A DNA stretch of 60,061 bases, taken from NCBI GenBank assembly GCA_905480605.1, contig CAJQRD010000014.1:1-60061 (forward strand). Direction: 5' to 3'. The notes under the pieces are model-generated. The model was not told where the DNA came from. It saw only the letters and a program-made list of their open reading frames with translations, and did no database searches. The DNA comes from an uncultured Saprospiraceae bacterium. Lineage in GTDB: Bacteria > Bacteroidota > Bacteroidia > Chitinophagales > Saprospiraceae. Below are positions 1,571-60,061 of the stretch, in pieces. How positions within the stretch are numbered: position 1 is the stretch's first letter; each line of letters starts with the position of its first letter. The translations under genes and the position numbers were made by a program.

Positions 1571-1817
1571 TCGATTAATTATTACCTACGTCTCCATGAA
1601 TGAGAAACCCGGGTTGTGCTTGAAGGAAGTATGATTTGTACTTCCCCAGTTAGAAAATATTTTTTCTCTTATCTAATACTCAAGAATATTACCAGGTGCT
1701 TTTAATTGTACCAGCATCTATACTTGCTTTTTTATGTGCTTGATATTTTGTTTTCTTCATTCTTTATTTACAATATTAGAAATAATTTATTTAGGACTTC
1801 CAAGTTCACTTCATATA

Positions 1818-3092
1818 TCAATTCTCACTCTCAACACTTTGCTTTCCATACAAATGAAAATAATACCAAGAGGCCAAACCACCGATAAATGAAAATATAG
1901 CCAACATATAAAAAACATGTTGATGACCTTGAGCACCAGGTGAATTGTCGAGAAGGTAACCCATAGCTGGTCCAGCGAAAATATCTGGGGTATATCCAAC
2001 AACTGATATTAGACCAACCGCCGTTCCAGTTAATATCAAAGGTATTTGTCCTCTCTCCATCACTGCAAAGTATAAAGAACGTGCTGCGTATATTCCTGTG
2101 GCCACAACCAAAATAGATACAAAAAAAAGTGCAGTTTCTGAATCTGTAATTATGCCTGTAGCAAACAATAAAGCACCAAAAAATGAAATCACAAAACTAA
2201 CCAACAACCAAAAAGTAGTTTGGGAGCGGTCTGCCAAAATGCCAATCATAACACCAATGATAGGACGGATAAATAACAACGAAGTTCCAACTTTCGCCGA
2301 TTGAATTTGATCATAAAGCATTACATCTTTTGCGTACAGTGAGAGCACATCTGTAATTTTATAACCAACATAAGCACACAAGATAATTATCATCAACAAC
2401 CAAACTGAAGGCAACTTCAAAACATCTTTAATTTGCGATGCCGTGATCTTTTCTAATATTATTTCAGATTCTATTTTAGGATCCATTTTCATAAAAACCC
2501 ACACCAACAGACCTACAAAGGCCACTAATCCAGAAGAGATTAAAATGACATATTTGAAGGCTGCCTTGCTTTCTGAAACTGTTGCAGCAGATATTTCTGA
2601 AGTAATAAAAAGAGCAAATACAAGAACGCCCATAGCACCAAACAGTGCACCTACTAATCCTCTCCCTCCGTCTAAAAACCCAAAAGCTTTGCCTTGAGAA
2701 GTTGAGCCTCCCCACACGCGCGTAGCCTTTATCATTGGAGCCCAGAATATAAAAATCGTCGTAAAGCCCCAATAACCGTAAAGTATTCTTAGAACTGTAA
2801 AGCTAGGAAAAGTAGCATAAACCAATCCACCTAATGCTGTCAACCAAAGTGCCGTTGCAATCAATTTTCTAGGTGGATACTTATCGGCCAAAGGACCTCC
2901 AAAGATATAGGACAACAAAGCCACTAAACCATAGACTGAAAAACATAAACCTAATTGAACATTGTCAAGTGCAAATGCATCAAGTACTGTTGGCCTGAAG
3001 ACTCGTGCAAGAACAAATGGTAAAATGAACACAGACTCTCCAGCCAATATCAGCAATAAGAGGTAATGCCACGGTGCTTTGTATTGATTCAT
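1818..3092 (-). CDS. Major facilitator superfamily (MFS) transporter
   Basis: A 424-residue inner-membrane protein with about 12 hydrophobic segments in two halves. The MFS signature between TM2 and TM3 is visible (G-G-P-L-A-D-K-Y-P-P-R-K, residues about 66-77), and a weaker copy follows TM8 (I-G-I-L-A-D-R-S). A charged cytoplasmic loop rich in K and E lies near residues 205-225, between the halves. The N-terminus is short, with the first membrane segment starting by residue 10, so the ATG at 3092 is plausible. Members of this subgroup carry sugar phosphates, anions or small organic acids by proton-coupled or exchange transport. The substrate cannot be read from the sequence. It is flanked by the N-acetyltransferase downstream and a gene-poor stretch with a KorA remnant upstream. 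Confidence 0.9.
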   Translation of the reverse strand: MNQYKAPWHYLLLLILAGESVFILPFVLARVFRPTVLDAFALDNVQLGLCFSVYGLVALLSYIFGGPLADKYPPRKLIATALWLTALGGLVYATFPSFTVLRILYGYWGFTTIFIFWAPMIKATRVWGGSTSQGKAFGFLDGGRGLVGALFGAMGVLVFALFITSEISAATVSESKAAFKYVILISSGLVAFVGLLVWVFMKMDPKIESEIILEKITASQIKDVLKLPSVWLLMIIILCAYVGYKITDVLSLYAKDVMLYDQIQSAKVGTSLLFIRPIIGVMIGILADRSQTTFWLLVSFVISFFGALLFATGIITDSETALFFVSILVVATGIYAARSLYFAVMERGQIPLILTGTAVGLISVVGYTPDIFAGPAMGYLLDNSPGAQGHQHVFYMLAIFSFIGGLASWYYFHLYGKQSVESEN

Positions 3093-3427
3093 TAGATATG
3101 GGGATTAAATACAAATTCAAAGAATAATCAAGTGATTTACGTCATTCTTATAATTTTCAATCGGGCTGTTTATTAGATCAAAAGTAAATCTCGATTTTAA
3201 ATTACATTAATTCTAAATCAAAACCAAAATTGATTCTTAATCATAAAAAAAGTACTCTACATCCCTATCCAAGTTTAGCGCTTTCAAAGACGATCACAAC
3301 GAGTGGTACAATAGCTATTATACCTCACTCTTGGAAAAACATATCAAATACTTTAATTCACTCCTTAATCAAAATACAATGATTCCTAGAGACATAAATT
3401 ATCCAGAATATATTAAACTCATTACAC

Positions 3428-3631
3428 GAAAACTATATTCGTGATGACATCAACTATATAGGTGTTCCTATGATACAGTTATCAATGGCCAACTATGATA
3501 CAGCACGGATTCAACAGCTCTTTAAAAAGATTATCTATGAAGGCGCAGTAGCAACTTTACTTGATATTGAAATCGATGTAGTCAAAGAAGTGATTGCGGA
3601 CCAATTTAAAAAGAAACCTAATTTCCTTTAA
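3428..3631 (+). pseudogene. Remnant of 2-oxoacid:ferredoxin oxidoreductase alpha subunit (KorA)
   Basis: In the 850-bp stretch upstream of the MFS gene, a plus-strand frame without its own start reads I-R-D-D-I-N-Y-I-G-V-P-M-I-Q-L-S-M, then L-F-K-K-I-I-Y-E-G-A-V, then L-L-D-I-E, and ends D-Q-F-K-K-K-P at TAA 3629-3631. This pattern (the I-G-V-P-M motif, an I-I-Y-x-G-A-x-x-A-L-L helix, then an E-V-I-x-D-Q-F end) matches, from memory, the gamma-type domain at the N-terminal part of Bacteroidota KorA-like subunits. No Rossmann or TPP-partner domain follows. Just upstream (about 3287-3444) a second short frame runs in another phase, ends in TGA and is not recognised. I interpret the segment as a gene scrap, not an expressed protein. 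Confidence 0.55.
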
Positions 3632-3942
3632 TTACAATGACTCGATAAATTAGGTGGATAGTGCACGGTCCAGCTTTAGCAATAATATATTAAATATGTC
3701 TTCTATAAAATCATCGCTAATTTCTTATGCAGATTCCCATCTAAAACTCAGAGTAAGAAAATCTTAGAAAGATAAACGTTAAAATAAAAGTAATTAGAAA
3801 ATAGTCTTGATTAGATCGATCATTATACTTTGTAGGAATCTCAATTTTCTCCTTCAAATTTTTCAGAAGAAATTTTTCATTGGTTTCTTGGTAGTTTTAA
3901 TCAAGGCCAACAGTCCTGTGTATTAACAGTATCTATACTAGC

Positions 3943-4515
3943 CTATAAAAATTGCTGTATATTCTTAATCATTCTGTGCGTTTTATAGTGTTTACAAAAT
4001 GCCGTATGATAACTATGATTACCAACAAATCTAACCTGTATTGCATTCCATTCATCACGCGTAAAACTAGCGTTATAATGTTTTAATTCTTGGTATAATT
4101 TTTCACTGAAAAAATTAAAATGTTTAGTGCCTAAATATTCCAAATCGGCATCTGCAAGTATTTTCTCAAGTAATGTCTTTGGATGCTGGGGGATTTTAGT
4201 TGCCATTATCATTCCACATATAATAGCAATACTTTCTTCTGAATAATTATAAGCTTTCAATTCTTTTCTCACAATTTTACAACCTATCGCCTCATGATTG
4301 ATATGCGATTTTATAAAACCTATATCATGATATATTGCAGCTATTTTTAACAACTCAATATTCTCTTTAGAAACACCTGACCTTTCAGCAATAAAGATGG
4401 CGCGCTTCAAAACATATAAAGTATGGTCGATGTTGTGATACGTTAAATGTTCAGGTAAATCTCTGTTTAACGTATCAGTTACATGCTTATATATAGTTTC
4501 AAACGATGCTTTCAT
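3943..4515 (-). CDS. HD-domain metal-dependent phosphohydrolase
   Basis: A 190-residue soluble protein with the HD superfamily metal-site layout: His31 in H-N-I-D-H, His63-Asp64 in I-Y-H-D-I-G-F, His74 in the next helix, and an acidic pair D122/D124 in A-D-A-D-L-E-Y-L-G. HD proteins hydrolyse phosphate esters such as nucleotides or cyclic nucleotides. Which substrate this one uses is not visible, and there is no RelA/SpoT synthetase or GGDEF-type partner domain. Its start codon overlaps the stop of the YitT gene (TAATG at 4517-4513), so translation is probably coupled and the two products may act together. Length is normal for stand-alone members. A hairpin terminator was not seen downstream. 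Confidence 0.85.
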   Translation of the reverse strand: MKASFETIYKHVTDTLNRDLPEHLTYHNIDHTLYVLKRAIFIAERSGVSKENIELLKIAAIYHDIGFIKSHINHEAIGCKIVRKELKAYNYSEESIAIICGMIMATKIPQHPKTLLEKILADADLEYLGTKHFNFFSEKLYQELKHYNASFTRDEWNAIQVRFVGNHSYHTAFCKHYKTHRMIKNIQQFL

Positions 4516-23640: not shown

Positions 23641-24975
23641 TTAATTTGTATTGACTTTATACTTAATAAGTAATGCATTCCATTTTTCACCATCGTGCAA
23701 CCATAAGTTTTGTAAGTTGTGATTATCAACAATAAGGTCAAATAAGTCAAATCCATTTTGCAGCGATTTTTCTAAATATTCAAATCCATTTTGATATTTA
23801 TTGTTTAAGCTGCTTATGATAGCAAGAAAAAAGTTTCTCCATTGTTTATCCGGGTCATCTAGAAGTGAAGCCTTCAAATAACTATCCGCTTTTTTATGGT
23901 CACCATTGTTTCTGAATATAAATTCCAAAGCTACATTTGATCCTAAGTAACCTGGGTTAAATTCCAGCAACTTTAAAAAATTCTCTTTTGCCGGCTCATA
24001 TTTTTTCTGCCTTAGGTATAACCATCCTAAATCATTATAATACTCAGATGTCAATTCCTCATTAACATCCAATGGCATATGATTTTTATAAAACATTTCA
24101 GCTTGATCAAATTTGCCTCTACGCATATAGTAATTCCATAATTCAAGATAAACACCGAAATACATGTCACATACAGCTGCATCTGCTTCAGCAACCAATA
24201 CTTTTTCAAGTTCATAAGTTCGATCAAGTCCTAAAAGAATATGAGCCAAAAAAAAGTAATCACTCACAGGAAGGTAGTCTGGTTCAGCGTTAAGTTTTTC
24301 ATAAAACTTTGTGATGTATAAATTTTTATAAAACGTAACTGAATCCGGTTCATTTAAGACATTATAGCCTTCCGAAATAGCCCAATAAGGCTCTAGGTAA
24401 TAAGTTTCATCATTGAGTGTTTCCTTATAAAGGCTTATAGATTTTTTTGGATCAGTATATATATATTCTGCTCCAAAGGTCATCTTCCATTTTATCCACT
24501 CAGGCGCAATGGTTTCTATTTTTTTAATATAATTCACAAAACTATCTCGGGATGACAGCCAAGCGATATTAAGTATAATGTGAGGTGCCTCTGGCGTATA
24601 AGACAAGGCTTGACGCAAGGATTTCAAGTCATAATAATCCGAAGTATCCTCATTTTCATAATACCTATTCAATTCAAAAGATTGAAAATAATATGCATTA
24701 GACATTAAGTTATTATAGTAATAATGCTTTTCACCTAATAGCTCAGCCGCTAAAAAAAAATAATTTTTGTATAAAGCATAATCAATACCAATTCCACATT
24801 CCAAAATCTCATCAAACTTTTCATCTCCACTCAAATATTTATTAATTACTTGTTGGCCATGATCCATAAGTGCCACAACAAACTTTCTTTTAATGACACC
24901 GGAAAGTTTTCCGATACCAGGATTATTTTGCAATTTATTAAAGTAATCACTGGCTGAAGAACCTTGAGGTTTCAA
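23641..24975 (-). CDS. TPR protein, C-terminal half of a caspase-TPR gene split by one TGA
   Basis: 444 codons directly following, in the same frame, the TGA of the caspase ORF. As an independent gene it would need a TTG start (24975) or the internal ATG at 24867 (residue 37). There is no signal peptide, unlike its neighbour. About six TPR-like units are visible, for example G-W-L-Y-L-R-Q-K-K-Y-E-P-A-K-E-N-F near residues 335-350. It aligns along its whole length with residues about 347-749 of the intact plus-strand paralogue, including the shared L-G-x-x-H-Y-x-Y-N-N segment and the C-terminal Y-L-E-K-S-L-x-x-G-F. Unless TGA is read through or re-initiated, this half stays in the cytosol or is not made. 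TPRs usually bind peptides or proteins. Confidence 0.8.
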   Translation of the reverse strand: MKPQGSSASDYFNKLQNNPGIGKLSGVIKRKFVVALMDHGQQVINKYLSGDEKFDEILECGIGIDYALYKNYFFLAAELLGEKHYYYNNLMSNAYYFQSFELNRYYENEDTSDYYDLKSLRQALSYTPEAPHIILNIAWLSSRDSFVNYIKKIETIAPEWIKWKMTFGAEYIYTDPKKSISLYKETLNDETYYLEPYWAISEGYNVLNEPDSVTFYKNLYITKFYEKLNAEPDYLPVSDYFFLAHILLGLDRTYELEKVLVAEADAAVCDMYFGVYLELWNYYMRRGKFDQAEMFYKNHMPLDVNEELTSEYYNDLGWLYLRQKKYEPAKENFLKLLEFNPGYLGSNVALEFIFRNNGDHKKADSYLKASLLDDPDKQWRNFFLAIISSLNNKYQNGFEYLEKSLQNGFDLFDLIVDNHNLQNLWLHDGEKWNALLIKYKVNTN

Positions 24976-25989
24976 TCAGTTATTGTTCTCAATGGCTACT
25001 AAAAACTGATCATATAATTTTCGGATTATTGTGTCAGCTTCTGAAAGAAAGATATCTTCCATTCCGCGATCATTTACCGCTAAAAATTTGGTGCCCTCGC
25101 TATCTAGTAAACTTCGTCTTGCTTGTAATTGTGCATCATCCACAAATGAAATTGTAGTCCTTGATGGCCCTTGCACAATTGGGTACTGGGATTGAGGAGC
25201 AACTTCTTCACTTACATGATCTTCAATATATCTTTGTACCTCCGTTAAACTAAGCACATAGTCATTATTGCTATCAGCCAATCCATACAAGGCATTTTCT
25301 AAATGATAAGAGAAACAACCTCTACCTCCACCCCATTGTTCTCCCTCCAAACTAAATTCTTCTGGCTGACATGACAGAATTTTAATCTCATTAGCAAATT
25401 GCTGACTCATTCTTGCTGCTGTAACACCAGTCCCGTTTTCAGAACTTCCAGCCAACTTCCCTGCCCTGCAAGCATCTGTTATTAATATTACCTGAACACC
25501 ATTGTCAGACAATGTAGCGATCATATCTTTTAAATAGTTTACGGCAAAAGCACCTGCACCATAAACTGATGGAGGAGAATCATATCCCAGAAGATATCCA
25601 TTATTATATTTAGTAACACGTTCCACGTCTCCATGACCAGAAAAATATATAAGCGCTCTGTCACCTTCTCTACTTTCCTCAATAAGCCAATCCATAGAAA
25701 CAATTATTTGAGCATTTGTAGCTTCATCATTTACATGGACCATTATATTGTCATTATCTATATTCCAGCCTGCTTTGGATTGCACCCATTTTGCTATGGC
25801 ACTCGCATCTTTATCTGCATATTCAAGATCAGGAATTTCTGCGGATTGATAATCAGAAATCCCAACAATAACAGCACGTGAGCTGCCTGCGTTGGCCATC
25901 TGTTTTTTTATAGGAGTTAAGCCCTTTTCTTGTTGTGCTTGGATAAAAGGTGAAATCAAGCAAAGGAATAATAAATTATAGAATTTCAT
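24976..25989 (-). CDS. Exported caspase-family (C14) peptidase, split copy
   Basis: 337 residues. A cleavable signal peptide (M-K-F-Y-N-L-L-F-L-C-L-I-S-P-F-I-Q-A-Q) sends the protein across the inner membrane. The caspase/p20-like domain spans about 35-290. The catalytic dyad is visible as His119 in Y-F-S-G-H-G-D and Cys174 in T-D-A-C-R-A-G-K. A 12-residue EF-hand-like loop D-S-N-N-D-Y-V-L-S-L-T-E lies further on, followed by a helix with Y-I-E-D-H-V and the S-Q-Y-P-I-V-Q-G strand near the p10 end. Caspase homologues cut after Lys, Arg or Asp. Specificity here is not readable. The frame ends in TGA where the paralogue at 26908-29157 has Phe346 and continues into TPRs. Confidence 0.88.
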   Translation of the reverse strand: MKFYNLLFLCLISPFIQAQQEKGLTPIKKQMANAGSSRAVIVGISDYQSAEIPDLEYADKDASAIAKWVQSKAGWNIDNDNIMVHVNDEATNAQIIVSMDWLIEESREGDRALIYFSGHGDVERVTKYNNGYLLGYDSPPSVYGAGAFAVNYLKDMIATLSDNGVQVILITDACRAGKLAGSSENGTGVTAARMSQQFANEIKILSCQPEEFSLEGEQWGGGRGCFSYHLENALYGLADSNNDYVLSLTEVQRYIEDHVSEEVAPQSQYPIVQGPSRTTISFVDDAQLQARRSLLDSEGTKFLAVNDRGMEDIFLSEADTIIRKLYDQFLVAIENNN

Positions 25990-56507: not shown

Positions 56508-59500
56508 ATGAAAAAAAGGGAAATTACTTTCTTCGTTATTACCATATTCATGTGTTTTGCAACTCACGCATTTTGTCAAAAAACCAATGCTGATCACAAA
56601 GTATTTCTACTAGGAAACTTAGAAAAACTAGATTTCGAATCTGACTATTTCAAAACTCTTTCTTCAGAAATCAATTCTGTTGATGGTCCTTACACAGTAT
56701 TAGTCAATGGTGATTTTGTAGGCCCTACCGGCCTTTCTATTCCTTCCAAATCTGAAGAAACTGACAGAATCGATGCGCTCATATCATTAGGCAGTGCAAA
56801 TGGTAAAGTTATTTTCATTCCTGGACACAAAGAATGAGATGACTCTGGAGATGATGGCAAAAAGAAACTATCTGCGTTAGAAAAGTACCTGAAAAAAAAT
56901 GGGGGGCGGAATGTAAAACTGTACCCAAGAAACAATTGTCTAGGACCTCAAATGATTAACTTGAATGATCATGTGCAGTTACTTACTATTAACTCACAAT
57001 GGCTTCTACAAGATAAGCGTATAGAAGAAGAAGACGAAAAGTGTAGTTTTCTCTCCGATCGAGAACTATGGAGCGAACTATCAGACCTAATAGCAAAAAG
57101 TGATAATAAAAACTTGATCGTAGCAATTCACCACCCATTAGTTTCATATGGACAATTTGCAGGATATAAACTAGGCGCTATGCATGTATCCCCTCCTATA
57201 TATGGTACTTTTAAAGCTGCTTTTCATAAGAACATAGGAGGCGCTAAAGATTTACAGAACAAAAAATTAGCCGCATTTAGAAATAGATTACAAACTATTG
57301 CTAAGAAAGTAGATGGTCTAATCTTTACATCAGGACATGAATATGATCTACAGATCAACAAAAGTGCTGGGAATTACCACATCAATAGTGGATCTCTAGT
57401 AGAATCAAGGCCAGTGGCTAGTAGAAAGGGAACTATATTCAGTAAAAACATGAAAGGCTATATCACATTAGACTTCAAAGGTGATGGAGACGTAATTGCT
57501 TCTGCCATGGAGGTGACATCAGGTAACTTCAAACAAGCATTCAGCCAAAAATTGTTTAGTAGCCCATGTAGAACAAACAAACCAGATTTCATCCCTCACA
57601 ACCCATCATATAATCCATGTCCAAATATGGTTACGCTAATAGATAGTGTGAATATTCCTGAAAAAGGAACAGCAATAGCAAGTACTGACTATAAAAAAGG
57701 CCCAGGTGATTTATATAGATCTACTTGGGAATTACCTATCAAAGACGTCCCTTACTTAGATATAGGAACCTACGAAGGTGGCCTTACGCTATACAAAGCC
57801 GGTGGGGCTGGAGAAACATCTTCATTAAAGTTCAAAACTAAGGATGGCAGAAAAATAGCATTCAGATCAGTAGACAAGAATCCGCAAACAAGATTCAGCG
57901 AGTCGATCGAAAATAGTTTGATAGGTCATACGGCTAAGGATCTAATTGCACATCAGCATCCATATGGGTCGTTAGCCGCTAAAGAATTTGCTGAAAAACT
58001 TGATCTTGGGCATACTGATCCACAGTTATACATAATGCCTGATGATCCAAGATTAGGTGTATATCAGAATGATTTTGCAGGTATGCTCGGTACATTAGAA
58101 ACAAAACCTTTTGGTGAAAACAATGGCAGCCCTGGTTATAAGGGTGCTACTAAGGTAGCGTCTACTTTTAAAATGTATAAAAAACTACTTAACGATAAGA
58201 ATGCAAAATTTGATCAAGACTCCTATGTTAAAGCTAGGCTACTCGATATGTGGTTAGGTGACTCGGATAGACATGATGACAATTGGGCATGGTTGGTTTA
58301 TGAAAAGGAAGGTGAGACTCTATACAAAGCATTCCCAAAAGATAAAGATAAAGTATTCGCAGTCTTAGATGGAATTTACCAGTTCATTGACTGGGAGATT
58401 GTCGGTAAGAATTGGGCTACATTTAAGGAGCATTACAAAGGGCTTAAGAGTCTTAACTTTAATTGCAAAGATAAAGATAGATGGTTACTTAGTTCATTAA
58501 CTAGAGAAGATTGGCAAAGTCAAGTGAAATATTTTTTAAGTGTGATGGACAATGCTACTATCGATAAAGCCTTAAGTAATATGCCTCCAGAGGCTCAAGC
58601 TATGACTTCAGCAGATATGAAGAAAACTATGCTGATCAGAAAAGATCTACTACCTGCAGCTATTGAAAAATACTATAAATTATTAGCTAAGTCTATCTAC
58701 GTAGTAGGAACGAACAACAGAGAACAATTTGACCTAGTAAGGCAAGCTAATGGAGACGTGCAAGTAACAGTTCATCACCTTTCAAAATCTGGAGACAAAA
58801 AAAAAGTAATCTACTCTAGACTAGTAAAAGAGACAGAAACCAAAGAAATAATTTTATTTGGCCTTGGTAAAAAGGACATATTTGAAATATCTGGAAATGC
58901 AAGCAAAAAGCTACTTATAAAAATAGTCGGTGGCGCTGGTAAAGATAAAATCAATGACTCATCTAAAGTAGCTGGGGGTAAATCTACTATTGTATATGCC
59001 AAAAATGAGAAGGATGAAATGACTCTCGGTGAGACAGGAAAATACATGCAAACTGAAAAGGATATTGTTTTCAACACGCAAAATATTTTTAATTACGATT
59101 ATGGATTTACTCTTCCTCGTCTTGGGTATAATGCAGATGATGGATTACAAATGGGAGTGATGTACTCGAATATCAAACAAGAATTTGGAAAACAAGAATT
59201 TGGTAGTAAAACAAGTATGACAGCAATTATTACTACTAACTTAAATGCAAGTCTTCAGTATCAATACATCAAGCGAAGAATAGGAACATTATGGGATGTT
59301 AGCTTTGAGTTATATGGAAACAACAGAGATAGAAAAAACCAATATTTCTATGGATTTGGAAATGAAACTAATGTAAATGCTGATTTAAGACTAGATAAGT
59401 TTTATAGGAACAATACTAAGCTACTTGGTACCAAAATAGGTCTAATTAGACAATTTTGGAATAAATCACACTTTAACCCTTCACTAAAAATAGAATATAG

Positions 59501-60061
59501 AGACGTATCAGCTAATCCTATCAATACCGAAGCCAGTTCCATATATGATGAATTTTTAGCTAGTAGATTATTAGGCACTAATACTTTAGTCGGTGGCGAG
59601 ATGGAACTATTACTAGATTTTACCGATAGTAAGAAGCTTCCTAAAGATGGCACTAGACTAAAGCTAAACAACTACACGTTCTATAATACTGCAGAAAATC
59701 TTGATCTCGGAGGCAGATTAGATGCAGAAGCTTCATTATACATGTCCGCTGGCGCTAAGAAGAGAATAACTCTAGGTTTAAGGGGTGGCTACAGTCAGAC
59801 TTATGGAGATTTGCCTTTCTATCAACTAAGTTCTATAGGACAGCAATCTAATAACAGAGGCATCAGAAGGAATAGGTACATTGGAAGATCTGCGGCATTT
59901 TATAATACAGAATTAAGAATACATCTTGGGAAGATCCATAATTTGAGTATTCCAATTAGATTTGGAGTATTCGGATTGTATGACTCTGGAAGAGTATGGT
60001 TTGATGATGAAACGTCAACTACATGGCATGCTTCATACGGTGGTGGCTTTTATATAGTACC
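56508..60061 (+). pseudogene. Calcineurin-like phosphoesterase fused to OMP85-type barrel, interrupted by TGA and cut by window end
   Basis: The frame starts with a signal peptide (to about Cys23) and a metallophosphoesterase domain: V-N-G-D-F-V-G (Asp69), P-G-H-K-E (His107), A-I-H-H-P-L, T-S-G-H-E-Y. At codon 110 (56835-56837) there is a TGA exactly where the family's G-x-x-x-W has Trp. After it the same frame stays open for 1074 more codons to the window edge. A large middle region is rich in K-D-K and contains W-L-G-D-S-D-R-H-D-D-N-W. From about residue 850 there are outer-membrane beta strands with R-G-I-R-R-N-R-Y-I-G, the OMP85/BamA loop-6 motif, and N-T-E-L-R-I. It matches a recurring Bacteroidota protein of about 1200 residues. 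Codon use is rich in CTA and AGA. Disabled unless TGA is read as Trp. Confidence 0.8.

Follow-up and report, generated by a model that had tools for sequence, protein, structure and literature searches.

The window, which is the whole stretch of DNA analysed here (60,061 nucleotides from an uncultured Saprospiraceae bacterium), is an entire contig (C14) of a draft genome of 4.51 Mb in 125 contigs that is 98% complete. One of its genes joins a caspase-like protease to a TPR arm in the same reading frame, with a single TGA between the two parts, and the question is what this stop means. It could be a recent nonsense mutation that has severed the protease from its arm, a stop that is read through, or the boundary of a regulated split in which the two halves are made separately; these three options had been left side by side when the DNA was read from its letters alone. 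The features on which the analysis bears are collected in the table.

Table. Features of the interrupted gene, its copies in the same genome, and a second interrupted gene of the window. Positions without a contig name refer to the window.
Feature	Position	Strand	Evidence
Caspase half, Peptidase_C14, ends in TGA	24976..25989	-	ORF list, Pfam, alignment
In-frame TGA at codon 338, in a predicted loop that follows the second arm helix	24976..24978	-	
TPR half, in frame with the caspase, open for 444 codons up to TAA	23641..24975	-	
Intact, divergently transcribed paralogue, caspase and TPR, 749 aa	26908..29157	+	
Second intact caspase-TPR copy	C24:4004-6574		
Caspase-TPR copy, frameshifted by one base within a run of A (L042)	C24:6757-9440		
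Caspase-TPR copy, caspase domain interrupted by one TGA (L041)	1635-3986, contig C78		
Metallophosphatase-like start and Omp85-like barrel, one TGA at 56835-56837, open to the contig end	56508..60059	+	

In the copy at 23641-25989 the continuity of caspase and TPR arm is broken at codon 338. On the minus strand, re-reading of the sequence confirmed the TGA at 24976-24978 and the TTG codon that follows it directly with the frame unchanged, both of which the sequence-only reading had reported. The upstream ORF encodes 337 aa, begins with ATG and carries a hydrophobic N-terminal leader; the frame behind the stop is open for 444 codons to the TAA at 23641, and an ORF check bore out the claim that no further stop interrupts it. 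The chance that a random stretch of the same base composition stays open for 444 codons is about 1e-16, so we regard the downstream frame as real coding sequence. The caspase half matched Peptidase_C14 (Pfam, E 4.2e-20, residues 38-273) and the TPR half scored above the Pfam cut-offs for TPR families. His119 and Cys174 are invariant in an alignment of 12 sequences and are, from what is known of the family, presumably the catalytic residues. The neighbouring paralogue had been described as one chain, and it does hold caspase and TPR parts intact in 749 aa; its alignment with the interrupted gene is free of gaps around the site and places the TGA opposite Phe346, as proposed. When five proteins were scanned with PADLOC, only P0003 and P0002 gave matches, both to a generic caspase profile.

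The structure predicted from 38 sequences (mean pLDDT 82.7, pTM 0.58) has a caspase core at about residues 37-297 followed by two helices, and codon 338 sits in a loop (335-345) ahead of the remaining TPR arm. Foldseek matched the core to the MALT1 paracaspase (3v4o, TMt 0.72) and also gave matches to TPR superhelices (O-GlcNAc transferase 1w3b). Since the TGA falls in a loop past the caspase core, the model predicts that the stop would leave the caspase fold complete but deprived of the arm.

Relatives of the gene were examined in 122 distinct genes from 111 loci. These loci were seven of the 29 relatives' loci of a search of 60 genomes, namely those with strong matches, together with sets of 29 and 75; they were chosen by similarity and sequence patterns, which gives some bias toward intact genes. 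In 119 of the 122 genes the frame is open beyond the position of the TGA, and in the other three the sequence ended earlier. No stop was found within 300 codons 3' of the catalytic Cys in any of the 122, as far as the sequence reached, and none of the 119 genes that could be read past the site shares the TGA of codon 338. The comparison of orthologues with and without the stop, which had been suggested as a check, thus returned one chain in 119 of 122 and the stop in none of those. The disabling stop is lacking in homologues, and this is one of the features by which a pseudogene is recognised. In the column of the TGA, 89 other aligned sequences (86 relatives' genes and three copies of this genome) have Phe in 58 cases, Leu in 29, Tyr in one and Thr in one. 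The best long match among the relatives is 44% identical. One of the 122 genes (in L183, near 7667) carries a stop 24 codons upstream of the Cys and may be broken in its early part.

The gene family was also followed at a wider scale. Matches at E 1e-40 or better were present in 87 of 398 genomes of the bacterial family, this genome counted in, and among the matches listed for these 398 genomes (at most two places per genome, stops counted within the match) all those outside this genome are free of stops. A full relative is absent from all 13 genomes of the same genus (53 to 98% complete), four of which give weak partial matches. The caspase-TPR family is accessory and multi-copy. The deeper search of 60 genomes recovered four weaker caspase-type matches elsewhere that do hold a stop (two in G014, one each in G033 and G047), so caspase genes are broken in other genomes too, at some rate.

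These comparisons bear directly on whether the locus makes two proteins, a caspase that ends at the TGA and a TPR arm re-initiated at the adjacent TTG. The position of that TTG, directly behind the TGA and at the head of a stop-free frame, is what such an arrangement would use, but none of the 122 relatives' genes shows a split, and 119 of them could be read beyond the site. The arm would moreover begin without a hydrophobic leader, as the sequence-only reading had predicted for a re-initiated half, and the first ATG lies 36 codons downstream of the TGA, inside the conserved arm. We consider two separate products extremely unlikely. Separate orthologous genes with independent ATG starts, which had been named as an observation that would refute the sequence-only reading, did not turn up among the 122 genes, and fission into two genes was dismissed on the same ground.

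The genome itself offers a closer comparison. It has five strong caspase-TPR copies, of which two are intact, two carry a single TGA and one is frameshifted, so that three of the five have a lesion, one each. In the copy on contig C78 the TGA stands in a column that is mostly Trp (Trp in 104 of 165 homologous readings shown, Tyr in 41, His in 17 and Ile in three). A second family is decaying in a similar way. The metallophosphatase-like start of the gene at 56508-60059 scores below the Pfam cut-off, and its family is present here as an intact copy (C72), this single-TGA copy and a copy with several stops (C37); a relative occurs in 11 of 13 congeners, none of them with a stop within the match.

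Taken together, the one-chain relatives, the broken sister copies and the decaying metallophosphatase family support a recent nonsense mutation. We conclude that the gene is very probably a recently broken copy, a young pseudogene, of a multi-copy family of leader-bearing caspase-TPR proteins. A nonsense mutation would have created the TGA at codon 338, and translation would stop there, giving a product with the leader, the caspase domain and two arm helices that lacks the TPR superhelix. Except for leak or weak re-initiation, the TPR half would be lost from the product. We infer that the event was recent and functionally costly and that the cell makes the truncated product; the recency and the TGA base itself are read from one assembly. 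Against recent decay stands the fact that, of the three TGA lesions that were noticed first, two fall on Trp or mostly-Trp columns, Trp being what leaky decoding of UGA would insert.

The metallophosphatase-like gene is the third gene broken by TGA and lies in the window, and Trp occupies the column of its TGA (56835-56837) in all 15 alignment rows (14 loci, two of them overlapping); this all-Trp column raised the suspicion that TGA is decoded in this organism. The machinery of decoding looks ordinary. RF2 scored over the family cut-off and has intact GGQ and SPF motifs, which we take to be the motifs of that factor. The prfB gene (L125) keeps the CTT-TGA-C leader for programmed frameshifting, with TGA as codon 21, a leader that responds to the level of RF2. 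None of the 32 tRNAs found has a TCA anticodon, in a set that is incomplete (tRNA-Ile(GAT) is missing, and scoring covered 150 of 405 candidates). In the tRNA-Trp with anticodon CCA the anticodon stem is 5 bp long, and A9 and G24 (our own numbering) are unchanged; UGA reading has been linked to a 4-bp stem, A9C and G24A (PMC13092985). No tRNA-Sec was found above the cut-off among 150 of 200 candidates scored, and a hairpin 3' of the TGA was not significant (z -1.09). Of the 810 ORFs in 1.92 Mb that reach 250 aa, 82 end in TGA, a few of these ends being interruptions, and in the first 448 kb the tails behind 20 of 22 TGA-ended ORFs are shorter than 60 codons. A change of the genetic code was rejected because RF2 is intact, the 32 tRNAs found include no TGA decoder and TGA is a normal stop. 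Selenocysteine was rejected as well, there being no tRNA-Sec over the cut-off among the candidates scored and no significant hairpin after the TGA.

Interruptions of this kind were surveyed in 1.92 Mb, or 43% of the genome, with a homologue required across the stop. A homologue reads across the stop in 41 of 617 same-frame candidates. A longer frame shadows 25 of the 41, which were dropped, and 16 remain; one of the shadowed candidates is a TGA opposite Trp (L065:637). Three of the 16 were set aside by eye, namely the frameshifted caspase-TPR copy (L042) and two doubtful junctions of genes, each supported by one weak homologue (L048 and L056). The final tally is 13 in-frame stops in ten genes, with all three stop types represented; it covers in-frame stops, and one entry (L272) rests on one homologue. 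Eight of the genes hold a single stop (TGA in four, TAA in two, TAG in two) and two more hold several.

The survey speaks to a subtler form of decoding, in which ordinary tRNA-Trp leaks through the UGA and the gene stays useful, giving a little full-length protein beside the truncated one. In PMC7918605, UGA is described as being read very rarely as Trp in E. coli, and a TGA reporter in Bacillus subtilis as showing 6% readthrough. The C78 and metallophosphatase lesions, on mostly-Trp and Trp columns, are what leaky reading would favour, and two of the eight single-stop genes have TGA at Trp, a borderline result, the chance of at least two being 0.045 to 0.106 (post hoc). The same eight genes are broken by all three stops, however, and TGA in four of eight is not a marked excess (P 0.137, post hoc). 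The intact RF2, the 5-bp stem of tRNA-Trp with its unchanged A9 and G24, the lack of a TCA anticodon among the 32 tRNAs of the incomplete set and the insignificant hairpin 3' of the stop all count against it. Leaky readthrough is in our judgement unlikely as the explanation of this gene. A more speculative version, to which we give little credence, is that ordinary tRNA-Trp partly reads TGA as Trp at Trp or bulky hydrophobic sites, so that such lesions would outlast those made by TAA or TAG and would serve as down-tuning switches. If true, TGA-bearing genes would give mostly arm-less caspase and little full-length protein.

Among the three options of the sequence-only reading, then, a recent nonsense mutation is the one that gained support; the regulated split found no support in the 122 relatives' genes, 119 of which run beyond the site, and readthrough found no specific support in the ordinary machinery.

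The TGA could also be an error of sequencing, assembly or binning over a true sense codon, a concern with this one draft genome in 125 contigs. Interruptions are nevertheless rare, with ten genes in 1.92 Mb compared with 810 ORFs that reach 250 aa, and they are not evenly spread: nonsense is concentrated in the caspase-TPR family, at two of five copies versus about eight of 805 (Fisher P 0.0013, post hoc). Across the first 1.23 Mb of the sampled sequence the letter N is absent. An error at this codon is accordingly very unlikely.

The divergence of the two halves was compared in separate trees, with mixed results. The downstream half exceeds the upstream half 3.13-fold on the terminal branch, where the median is 2.64 (rank 34 of 90), and 2.09-fold from root to tip, where the median is 1.23 (rank 5 of 90). 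The downstream terminal branch of the interrupted gene is the fifth longest of 90 and the upstream one the 18th, and the half-trees place the gene beside different nearest neighbours. Scored against family profiles in a set of 34 (30 relatives, each left out in turn, and four copies of this genome), both halves come lowest, at 1.34 and 0.52 bits/aa. An unconstrained downstream frame would be expected to gain a second lesion after about 5 to 11 substitutions, and none was seen. The long downstream branch and the low scores could reflect relaxed constraint that predates the stop, or a divergent subfamily. The data fit a lesion of young age in a copy that was divergent or under relaxed constraint beforehand, and they would also fit a gene that is still in use.

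In its parts the gene resembles bacterial orthocaspases and metacaspases (PF00656, Peptidase_C14) with TPR, sharing the His-Cys dyad, the leader and the TPR arm; unlike these caspase-TPR homologues, the copy at 23641-25989 has a TGA between caspase and arm. Single-stop pseudogenes of bacteria have a lone nonsense codon in an otherwise open frame, belong to redundant families and stand beside more decayed genes in their genome. The interrupted gene shares all of this and does not differ from them in kind. In PMC3501461, TPR_1 and TPR_2 are given among the four commonest partner domains of bacterial metacaspases, and Haliscomenobacter hydrossis, also of the Bacteroidetes, is given 28 metacaspase genes. 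Some in-frame stops of bacteria have been argued to be kept, and PMC7918605 uses as its criterion a stop present in orthologues of at least two species. The kept stops described there likewise include in-frame TGA with an open downstream part, but the TGA of codon 338 is shared by no relative examined. A literature search on caspases in Saprospiraceae found nothing relevant; no paper on this locus was noticed in the literature searches, and we make no claim that the locus is unreported.

The apparent split protease is thus most likely ordinary decay in an accessory family of one bacterium. Its value lies in the copies that survive in differing states, two intact and three with one lesion each. 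Strains, if found, could time the loss of caspase-TPR genes and allow the persistence of TGA lesions to be compared with that of TAA and TAG lesions.

Several other interrupted genes were recorded in passing. One gene at L267 (5594-7151) has three in-frame stops, and a second gene at the same locus has a single TGA (15101) at an Arg column. At L129:11623, L272:7590, L282:13049 and L295:19465, unshadowed TAG or TAA stops are read through by homologues. The stop at L282:13049 belongs to the gene on C82 that had given a weak caspase-like match in the earlier homology search.
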